The position numbers were made by a program, and so were the translations under genes. The notes beneath the pieces were generated by a model. The model had not been told where the DNA came from. It saw only the letters and a list, made by a program, of their open reading frames with translations, and made no database searches. DNA of 64,000 nt, from NCBI GenBank assembly GCA_947628175.1, contig CANQZA010000003.1, forward strand, positions 1-64,000. The letters run 5' to 3'. Shown piece after piece: positions 35,976-58,624 of the stretch (within the stretch, counting starts at the first letter, position 1; every line of letters starts with the position of its first letter). Source of the DNA: an uncultured Clostridia bacterium (lineage in GTDB: Bacteria > Bacillota > Clostridia > Oscillospirales > Acutalibacteraceae).

Positions 35976-36140
35976 TTATTGCTGCTCCTGCTGAGCATTT
36001 GCATCTTCTCCGCCGGGGCCGTCTCTGCGCTCTCTGTCATCAGGATAATATTTGAGATTGCTGTTTGTCCATTGATTATCAACGGCTGTCTTTTCGTTAT
36101 CCTGCTGGTTGTTGTTCTTGTTTTTGCTTTTGTTTTTCAT
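35976..36140 (-). CDS. small hydrophilic protein (54 aa)
   Basis: MKNKSKNKNNNQQDNEKTAVDNQWTNSNLKYYPDDRERRDGPGGEDANAQQEQQ; ATG immediately downstream of the structured leader (copy A). Absent from the ORF track because of length. Confidence 0.65.
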   Translation of the reverse strand: MKNKSKNKNNNQQDNEKTAVDNQWTNSNLKYYPDDRERRDGPGGEDANAQQEQQ

Positions 36141-36148
36141 ACTAATCA

Positions 36149-36213
36149 ATAGCCTTTCCGGCTACTTAAATGTTAAATCACATAGCTCCCTGCGTAGCCG
36201 TACAAGGTGTGAT
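36149..36213 (-). promoter_or_regulatory. structured leader element, copy A (candidate RNA switch)
   Basis: ATCACACCTTGTACGGCTACGCAGGGAGCTATGTGATTTAACATTTAAGTAGCCGGAAAGGCTAT; near-identical core to 51513-51580. Confidence 0.65.
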
Positions 36214-36363
36214 GATAGCCGCACCGACTGAAAAGCAAATTTTGCTTTTTTTGTGCAATAGTATTATGTGTTATTTTGAAAGAATTATTATATAGATAAT
36301 CTGTGTTATATAGAACCTGAAGGGCAAACTAAGTGCATGATTAAACCGGATTAGTGAGGAAAA

Positions 36364-51420: not shown

Positions 51421-51463
51421 TTCAGGATTGGTTCCGTTTTAAGAGAACGAATTACAATTATAT

Positions 51464-51503
51464 TGCCGTTTAAATGTGTACAAGTGTACTGTTTAATACG
51501 GCA
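51464..51503 (+). promoter_or_regulatory. stem-loop at 5' side of biotin-carrier leader
   Basis: TGCCGT-TTAAA-tgt-GTAC-aagt-GTAC-tg-TTTAA-t-ACGGCA. Confidence 0.6.
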
Positions 51504-51512
51504 CTGAGTTGC

Positions 51513-51580
51513 ATCACACCCTGTAGGGCTACAGCAGGGAAACCGTGATTTTAATTATAATTTGTAGCCAGAAAGGCTAT
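51513..51580 (+). promoter_or_regulatory. structured leader element, copy B (candidate RNA switch)
   Basis: ATCACACCCTGTAGGGCTACAGCAGGGAAACCGTGATTTTAATTATAATTTGTAGCCAGAAAGGCTAT; SD inside the terminal hairpin; core matches copy A. Confidence 0.68.
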
Positions 51581-51584
51581 GTGA

Positions 51585-51995
51585 ATGAATATGAAAAACT
51601 ATACTATTACTGTAAACGGCACACCATACAATGTAACTGTTGAAGAGGGTGTTTCTACTGCGGCAGCACCTGCTCCTGCGGCTGTACCTGCTCCGGCTCC
51701 CACTCCGACTCCATCTCCTGCCGCTGCACCTGCCGCCGCTCCTGCACCCGCATCCGCACCTGCCGCTGCAGGCTCTGCCGGTTCAGTGACTGTTGAGTCA
51801 CCTATGCCGGGTAATATACTTGATATCAAGGTAAAGGTAGGCGATTCCGTTTCTAACGGACAGGTTTTATGTATACTTGAAGCTATGAAAATGGAAAATG
51901 ATATTGTATCTCCTCAGGATGGAACGGTTGCTTCCGTAAATGTGAATAAGGGTGATAGTGTTGATGTCGGCCAGGTGCTGATTACATTAAACTAA
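51585..51995 (+). CDS. biotin carboxyl carrier protein (1.3S/OadA-C type)
   Basis: Ala/Pro linker; ESPMPGNILDIKVKVGDSVSNGQVLCILEAMKMENDI biotinylation motif EAMKM. Confidence 0.95.
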   Translation: MNMKNYTITVNGTPYNVTVEEGVSTAAAPAPAAVPAPAPTPTPSPAAAPAAAPAPASAPAAAGSAGSVTVESPMPGNILDIKVKVGDSVSNGQVLCILEAMKMENDIVSPQDGTVASVNVNKGDSVDVGQVLITLN

Positions 51996-52007: not shown

Positions 52008-53405
52008 ATGGCTAAAATTGGTATTACGGAAACTGTACTGCGTGACGCACACCAGTCGCTTATTGCAACCCGTATGACAACGCAGGAATTTTCCGATATT
52101 CTGGAGAAGATGGATAAAATAGGATTCCATTCACTTGAATGTTGGGGCGGTGCCACTTTTGACGCATGTCTCAGATTTCTTGGTGAAGATCCTTGGGACA
52201 GACTCCGCCTTATTCGTAAAAAATGTCCAAATACAAAGTTGCAGATGTTGTTCCGCGGACAGAATATGCTCGGCTACCGTCATTATTCTGATGAAGTAGT
52301 TGATTATTTTGTAAAAAAAAGCATTGATAATGGTATTGATATTTTAAGAATTTTTGATGCGCTCAACGATGTTCGCAATTTGCAGACTGCTATTAACGCA
52401 GCTAAAAAATACGGCGGTCATGTGCAGGCTGCGATTTCATATACTACAGGTCCCGTGTTTGATATTGATTATTATTGCAGTTACGCAAAGCAGCTTGAAA
52501 ATGCAGGTGCAGATTCCATCTGTATTAAAGATATGGCAGGTCTGCTCACACCATACGGCACATATGATTTGGTAAAGGCGCTTAAAAAGTCTGTTCATGT
52601 TCCGATTCAGCTCCATTCTCATTACACATCAGGTCTTGCCTCAATGGTTCATCTCAAGGGCGTTGAAGCCGGTGTGGATGTCATTGACACAGCAATGAGC
52701 CCTCTTGCAATGGGTACTTCTCATCCTGCAACCGAATCAATGGTCGCTGCGTTTCAGGGAACACCTTATGATACCGGGCTTGATATCAAGGCGCTTACCG
52801 AAATACGCGAATTCTTTGTTCCTCTTCGTGAAAAGTATCTTGAATCAGGTCTGCTTGATCCTAAAATGCTCGGGGTTGACGCCAACACGCTTTTGTATCA
52901 AGTTCCCGGCGGAATGCTGTCCAATCTTGTTTCCCAACTCAAACAGGCAGGCAAAGCGGATAAGCTTGAGGATGTGCTCAATGAGGTGCCGAGAGTCCGT
53001 GAGGATTCAGGTTATCCTCCTCTTGTTACCCCTACCTCACAGATTGTAGGAACGCAGGCCGTGTTCAATGTCATAATGGGTGAGAGATACAAGATGGTTA
53101 CAAAGGAATTTAAGGATTTGGTAGCAGGAAAGTACGGCAAAACACCTTGTGACATTGATCCCCAATTCAGAAAAAAAATTGTAGGTGATGATGATATCAT
53201 TGACTGCCGTCCTGCCGATCTTATTACCGATACAGTTGATTCTTTTAAGAATGAAATAAAAGAGTTTTGTGAGCAGGAGGAGGATATTCTCTCTTACGCT
53301 CAGTTCGGTCAGGTTGCCGTTAAATTTTTTGAAAAAAGAAGAGATGAAAAATACGGCCTTGACGGAAAACATGACGATATGGAAAATAAGGTTCATCCCG
53401 TATAA
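52008..53405 (+). CDS. oxaloacetate decarboxylase alpha / transcarboxylase 5S-type carboxyltransferase
   Basis: ITETVLRDAHQSLIATRMTT, SLECWGGATFDACLRFLGEDPW, QLHSHYTSGLASM, MSPLAMGTSHPATE. Confidence 0.95.
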   Translation: MAKIGITETVLRDAHQSLIATRMTTQEFSDILEKMDKIGFHSLECWGGATFDACLRFLGEDPWDRLRLIRKKCPNTKLQMLFRGQNMLGYRHYSDEVVDYFVKKSIDNGIDILRIFDALNDVRNLQTAINAAKKYGGHVQAAISYTTGPVFDIDYYCSYAKQLENAGADSICIKDMAGLLTPYGTYDLVKALKKSVHVPIQLHSHYTSGLASMVHLKGVEAGVDVIDTAMSPLAMGTSHPATESMVAAFQGTPYDTGLDIKALTEIREFFVPLREKYLESGLLDPKMLGVDANTLLYQVPGGMLSNLVSQLKQAGKADKLEDVLNEVPRVREDSGYPPLVTPTSQIVGTQAVFNVIMGERYKMVTKEFKDLVAGKYGKTPCDIDPQFRKKIVGDDDIIDCRPADLITDTVDSFKNEIKEFCEQEEDILSYAQFGQVAVKFFEKRRDEKYGLDGKHDDMENKVHPV

Positions 53406-58384: not shown

Positions 58385-58624
58385 ACTTCAATATTGAATG
58401 GCAATGAGGAAGAGGAGTACTCTGCTGCGTCTTTTAAGAGAGTGTCCGTTTGGTGAAAGGAGCAGGGCAGGCAGAGGAAGGTAGCTTCTGAGCCGGTATT
58501 ATGAACAGAGTAGTTTTATCCGTATGTCTGCGTTAAAGGCTTTGAGCGGCATTGAATCAATGCAATTTGAGTGGTACCACGGAAGTATGTGCTTTCGCCT
58601 CATATGAGGTGAAAGCATTTTTAT
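58385..58624 (+). promoter_or_regulatory. T-box leader of valS
   Basis: AGTA and AGAGAG/GGTGAAA stem I motifs, conserved TTTGAGTGGTACCACGG T-box sequence, terminator TGCTTTCGCCTCATATGAGGTGAAAGCATTTTT. Confidence 0.88.

Follow-up and report, generated by a model that had tools for sequence, protein, structure and literature searches.

A small folded repeat of gut Clostridia that probably carries a replacement translation start into the interval between the Shine-Dalgarno sequence and the start codon

The BOX, RUP and SPRITE repeats of Streptococcus pneumoniae are small, non-coding, structured and multicopy sequences that lie near genes, are co-transcribed and are likely mobile, and MITE-type repeats, as defined in the same work, have terminal inverted repeats and target site duplications (PMC3049150). 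The element described here was met twice in a 64,000-nt stretch of DNA from an uncultured Clostridia bacterium (contig CANQZA010000003.1, positions 1 to 64,000; hereafter the window), as copy A on the minus strand and copy B on the plus strand. It is a previously uncatalogued folded repeat of ~165 nt. Sequence comparison makes it quite probable that this is a small non-coding mobile element bringing a replacement translation start, which enters between the Shine-Dalgarno (SD) sequence and the start codon of a host gene and whose pseudoknotted half is kept by selection.

As a small non-coding, structured, multicopy element near genes and likely mobile, it resembles BOX, RUP and SPRITE, and likewise its near-identical structured copies are numerous and scattered within one genome and patchily distributed among relatives. 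For those repeats, however, PMC3049150 gives neither confinement to the SD-AUG interval nor the supply of a pseudoknotted ribosome-binding site. Bacterial MITEs are also short non-coding repeats that amplify within a genome, but the present element was tested and lacks their terminal inverted repeats and target duplications. With the non-autonomous elements of the REP or IS200-IS605 (Y1) type it shares the absence of both, a hairpin end and oriented insertion by a short target motif; unlike them, it sits at start codons, replaces the ribosome-binding site and is without a Y1 domain in three carriers. Riboswitches of the preQ1 and SAM-II types control translation by a pseudoknot in which a hairpin loop pairs with a strand beside the SD. 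In the element, too, a loop pairs with a strand adjoining the SD and competing pairings could switch the SD, but it differs from these riboswitches in having no Rfam match, no coherent regulon and dispersed mobile copies. Its sequence would hence place it among small interspersed repeats of unusual targeting and cargo that also appear to behave like a pseudoknotted translational leader. Within the literature covered, which was partial and left most subscription papers outside, no account of the element was found, either as an insertion that separates SD from start codon or as a structured RNA from this lineage.

Comparison with orthologous sites that lack the element shows that it separates the old SD from the start codon and is oriented in the gene's sense. 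The genomes compared were mostly metagenome-assembled genomes (MAGs), one per species, and the exact junctions are thus read across species. The gene for the biotin carboxyl carrier protein (BCCP), which follows copy B, carries the insert only in this genome, and 28 other genomes whose start was read have an ordinary SD...ATG; the relatives read ..TAATGGAGGATaaatactATG at this site, whereas this genome reads ..TAATTCAGGATT, then the element, then AATATG. Copy B accordingly lies between a degenerate old SD (AGGA, 51424-51427) and the BCCP start codon at 51591. The yicC gene is filled in one genome, G004 (..tctGGAGA followed by atagtgtg...), and empty in another, G433 (..tttGGAGAattttaaatATG); the junctions are TTTTGGAGAATTTTAAATATG in G433 versus TCTGGAGA, the element (ATAGTGTG...GGGAATTGAT) and ATG in G004. 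At tsaD, one MAG is filled and the 29 genomes read are empty. In L307 and L308, two homologues of the 54-amino-acid gene behind copy A, the start is an ordinary GGGGTGATAAAATG. Across the family, an ATG follows the beginning of the core by 21-35 nt in 157 of 167 unique copies, and by exactly 27 in 107 of them. An SD-like 4-mer ending no more than 9 nt from hairpin A was found in 54 of the 59 copies with a recognisable left end, versus 103 of 462 control windows (22%).

Recent copies proved longer than the part first seen once the sequence farther 5' was read. A full copy runs from the old SD of the host through hairpin A (TAGTGTGAAAAATCACACTA), a near-perfect palindrome, a short spacer, hairpin B (TTGCCCTCAAAATTTGCC..GGCATAATTTTGAGATGGC), the 5' strand of helix P0, and hairpin P1/P2 with its loop CCGGCUACA to an AU-rich linker; there follow UGUAGCCGG, AAAGGCU, the P0 3' strand, three variable bases and AUG. 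The element carries no open reading frame (ORF), and the thermodynamic fold of a full copy is far more stable than its shuffles (z -7.5). At L223, L234 and L239 hairpins A and B are separated by ~90 additional structured bases (CTCAGTTGCGGTACC...CTCGCACTGCGAGCGGTCGCAAACGAACCCC), a longer form of the element.

Covariation was evaluated in 54 full copies for a structure comprising hairpins A and B, P0, P2 and the pseudoknot. These pairings form in 92.6% of cells and contain 150 double-sided changes, compared with 46.7+/-6.4 in shuffled alignments and 9-32 in slid controls; the alignment with homologues proposed in a first-pass annotation of the window, which had paired copies A and B as a conserved leader, therefore shows the structure to be preserved. 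Each of the five parts just listed has covariation support. The pseudoknot, absent from that annotation although it is the main pairing of the leader, joins the P2 loop to GUAGCC, and the base adjoining the hexamer pairs as C-G in 110 cases, U-A in 16 and A-U in 14. The hexamer pairs GGCTGC/GCAGCC and GACTAC/GTAGTC occur while a third hexamer, GGCTAT, stays unchanged; because the distant loop follows the changes in GUAGCC while GGCTAT does not, the conserved pairing is the pseudoknot. The last hairpin, GUAGCC/GGCUAU, which had been proposed to hold the SD in its loop, can form in 99.4% of cells, but no compensatory change was found in it among the 54 full-length copies, and it was rejected as a conserved structure. 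P0 pairs the bases 5' of P1 with those between GAAAGG and AUG (AATTCCCAT/ATGGGAATT, AATTCACAT/ATGTGAATT, AATCACCAT/ATGGTGATT and others), and its covariation score of 7.95 exceeds all 200 shuffles (maximum 6.96).

A genome-wide pattern search gave 19 matches versus 8 for the reversed control pattern, and the matches, read individually, displayed a single common architecture directly 5' of an ATG in nearly all cases. A covariance model (R1), whose search does not select for GAAAGG, was then built and used for genome searches. It returned 27 matches at E<=0.01 in the host genome, all of which lead into a start codon at the expected distance (L040 was checked by eye). The leader is consequently not the two-copy feature that the first-pass annotation described but a dispersed family of ~27 copies. 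Its placement directly 5' of start codons, in the sense of the downstream gene, was borne out, and the many copies away from start codons that were to speak for a repeat rather than a leader did not appear, since essentially every copy is at a start codon. At least 167 distinct copies were collected in related Clostridia (Eubacterium coprostanoligenes relatives). Within the genus, 17 of 24 other genomes searched contain copies, up to 26 per genome; none were found in 15 genomes of other families, and an order-wide search of 394 genomes under stricter filters gave matches in 10 genomes from 3 of 168 genera. The named records with the element are mostly gut Clostridia around E. coprostanoligenes, including its type strain (ATCC 51222, loci L163 and L171). 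One copy (L112) is in a MAG labelled Bacteroides sp., which is probably a mislabel, binning error or contamination rather than an inter-phylum jump.

The genes behind the host-genome copies are unrelated and include those for SHMT, AIR synthase, transketolase, ribosomal protein L9, pantothenate kinase, deformylase, IspF, QueA and TrpC; a pathway or metabolite shared among them was looked for and none was found. These names, like those of the BCCP and carboxyltransferase genes, are based on Pfam, the others on reading of the N-termini. Rfam 15 gave no match for the window copies, either in the gathering scan or for both copies at E<=10, nor for full-length copies, and a known RNA family was rejected as the identity of the element. 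No group II intron core was matched in full-length copies at E<=0.5. Viral contigs and the phage and plasmid collections contained no element, and an origin from phages or plasmids was likewise rejected.

Recent movement is indicated by the 98% identity of the copies ahead of dxr and yicC, two unrelated genes in one genome, and the gene sets carrying the element differ between species. The statement that the leader reflects RNA function rather than recent duplication hence holds in its first part only: duplication is evident between such related loci, and both are true of the family. A tandem pair precedes a dUTPase gene at L194, where the 3' end of the first copy is the insertion site of the second. 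The ends (AATTCCCATAGCC.. versus TAGTGTGAAAAAT..) share no terminal inverted repeat, and no target site duplication was detected, the direct repeats of the flanks being 3.35 observed versus 3.36 shuffled. The flank beside the old SD pairs with the right arm of hairpin A over a mean of 2.44 consecutive pairs versus a shuffled maximum of 1.43; the pairing lies at the base of hairpin A in full-length copies (columns 7-9 with 31-33 of alignment A4), where the host-side bases are variable. This complementarity could be guide-target pairing at insertion or could stem from later selection burying the old SD.

The window copies are diverged, old, retained members of this dispersed family. The sequence GTAGCCRGAAAGGCTAT with up to two mismatches has exactly two matches in the window, 36149-36165(-) and 51564-51580(+), with 0.00 expected from 100 shuffles. 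Copy A, first reported at 36140-36232(-), was recovered with its sequence, strand and coordinates, and its partner lies at about 51505-51590(+). The quoted segments of both copies are present as well, as are the 5' hairpin AAGCAAAATTTGCTT and the difference between CCUUG/CAGGG and CCCUG/CAGGG. The placement was correct; the extent was too short, the upstream hairpins of both copies (Table 1) belonging to the element as well. Copy B has stems at the positions of hairpins A and B and copy A at that of hairpin B, with very different sequences; in copy A the stem is kept and the sequence is entirely unlike the consensus. The main pairing in copy A joins loop GGCUAC (36199-36194) to GUAGCC (36165-36160). 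The hydrophilic 54-amino-acid protein encoded behind it has no Pfam match, and its homologues, at 54-58% identity in 3 of 79 other genomes of the genus, are without the element. Elsewhere in the window there is a T-box leader at 58395-58605 (+) (Rfam RF00230, 120 bits).

Table 1. Positions in the window of the two copies, their parts and the genes behind them
Feature	Position	Strand	Remarks
Copy A, whole (hairpin B-like stem and right half, to the base before the ATG of the 54-aa ORF)	36141..36256	-	covariance model 64 bits, E 3e-12
Copy A, hairpin B equivalent (GCAC...AAAGCAAAATTTGCTTT...GTGC)	36221..36256	-	position matches TTGCCCTCAAAATTTGCC..GGCATAATTTTGAGATGGC of full copies
Copy A, P1 (36213-36208 with 36182-36177) and P2 (36207-36203 with 36192-36188)	36177..36213	-	
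Copy A, pseudoknot 5' strand CGGCUAC, in P2 loop	36194..36200	-	
Copy A, pseudoknot 3' strand GUAGCCG	36159..36165	-	
Copy A, element-borne SD-like GAAAGG	36153..36158	-	
54-aa ORF behind copy A	35976..36140	-	
Copy B, whole	51428..51590	+	covariance model 85.9 bits, E 8e-18
Copy B, hairpin A equivalent	51430..51453	+	predicted fold
Copy B, hairpin B equivalent (TGCCGTTTAAA..TTTAATACGGCA)	51464..51503	+	
Copy B, P1 (51513-51517 with 51545-51549) and P2 (51519-51523 with 51535-51539), loop GGCUACA 51527-51533	51513..51549	+	
Copy B, pseudoknot 3' strand UGUAGCC	51563..51569	+	
Copy B, element-borne SD-like GAAAGG	51571..51576	+	
BCCP gene behind copy B	51591..51995	+	Pfam
Oxaloacetate/pyruvate carboxylase-type carboxyltransferase gene, next after BCCP	52008-53405		Pfam

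The following mechanism is proposed. As the empty orthologous sites show, the element inserts in sense orientation between the SD and the start codon; it would push the old SD too far off to work, so that translation would have to begin from its own GAAAGG, perhaps also from the G-rich P0 strand. GAAAGG would be supplied ~14 nt 5' of the AUG, inside a fold in which, as the covariation shows, the P2 loop pairs with GUAGCC just 5' of it and P0 closes the domain just before the AUG. The fold with P2 and the pseudoknot is the putative translating state because AAAGG stays unpaired in it. Competing pairings, either the P2 5' strand GCCUU with AAGGC of the SD or GUAGCC with GGCUAU, would hide the SD, and translation of the host gene would depend on which fold forms; old copies would therefore keep their pseudoknotted half under selection, and the left half would drift. 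In the tpiA leaders L081 and L085, from different species of another family, the loop CGGCUAC, GUAGCC and GAAAGG are kept and the P2 stem is wholly changed (CCTGC/GCAGG in one, GTGTCCGG/CCGGACAC in the other), and copies A and B likewise retain these three parts with an altered P2 stem. This is the pattern expected from selection on an mRNA fold, not on mobility, and selection probably acts on the pseudoknotted half as a functioning ribosome-binding site that may be regulated.

Several points weigh against this mechanism. No Y1 transposase consistently accompanies the element; spacer bases may be lost at insertion, so that pure insertion is a deduction from the empty sites, and some insertion sites may be shared by descent and not independent. 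The collection of copies was partly selected for GAAAGG, though the R1 search of the host genome was not. The distance from GAAAGG to AUG is long, and the actual contact may fall on the G-rich 3' strand of P0, which is closer to the AUG. Assignment of the ON state to the pseudoknot is our inference, and the plain thermodynamic fold of a full copy favours a nested helix burying the SD. As this helix is GCCUU/AAGGC, the pseudoknot may be the translation-permitting state and the element a potential switch.

The folds might instead serve single-stranded DNA transposition of a selfish repeat, like IS200/IS605 or REP elements, with an SD-like right end that merely makes insertions tolerable and with no regulation. 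The lack of terminal inverted repeats and target duplications, the strand-specific orientation 3' of a short SD-like motif (54/59), the terminal hairpin on the left, and a complementarity of the left flanks to hairpin A's right arm that exceeds the shuffled maximum, as guide-target pairing would give, all agree with such a repeat. Yet the Y1 (HUH) transposase domain PF01797 was not found in the carriers G015, G021 and G009 (about 26, 25 and 10 copies), whose assemblies are 89-92% complete, so that the absence is not absolute; a Y1 transposase was rejected as the mobiliser as inconsistent with these carriers. The conservation of the P2 and pseudoknot half in old copies, with compensatory stem changes in the tpiA pair and in copies A and B, also argues against a purely selfish repeat, which we regard as rather unlikely. 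Compatible with the proposed replacement translation start, but in itself distinctly unlikely, would be a mobile promoter or operator cassette in which hairpin A is a DNA operator, hairpin B holds a -35/-10 pair and the new transcript begins with the right half. The palindrome of hairpin A would fit an operator, and a sigma-70-like pair, TTGCCC-17-CATAAT, lies within hairpin B of a full copy (L143:5399-5427 (-)), with a possible start just before P0. However, neither window copy retains such a promoter on the strand of the gene, CATAAT is missing in one subgroup (e.g. L087, L111), the stems of hairpin A vary from TAGTG/CACTA to TAGCG/CGCTA and are entirely different in copy B, and several copies lie within operons.

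The position in the 5' untranslated region, where a conserved structure has covariation support, the pseudoknot adjoining the SD, the conserved loops and the alternative pairings able to hide the SD would also suit a riboswitch class belonging to this lineage that senses a metabolite or ion in the conventional way, with a large regulon and incidental mobility. Such a class is improbable in light of copies 98% identical before unrelated genes of one genome, carrier genes that vary by species, orthologous sites empty in near relatives, downstream genes with no common pathway, and the absence of a catalogued aptamer match in Rfam 15; nor does it account for the two upstream hairpins, A and B, or for the old SD that borders the element on the left. 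A bolder form of the replacement translation start, which we entertain as possible without favouring it, would be a new kind of mobile element that targets the ribosome-binding site itself. It would recognise the SD region, possibly via the variable right arm of the terminal hairpin, enter before the start codon and impose a shared switchable pseudoknot, so that dozens of housekeeping genes with no relation to one another would have had their translation rewired by one RNA family.

Mobile DNA is known to carry promoters. If the present reading is true, an element that lands precisely between SD and AUG and brings a folded ribosome-binding site of its own would give translational control a direct way to spread through a genome. 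The filled and empty orthologues form natural before-and-after pairs for measuring the effect of a mobile leader on expression, and a cultured type strain with the element exists in E. coprostanoligenes ATCC 51222.
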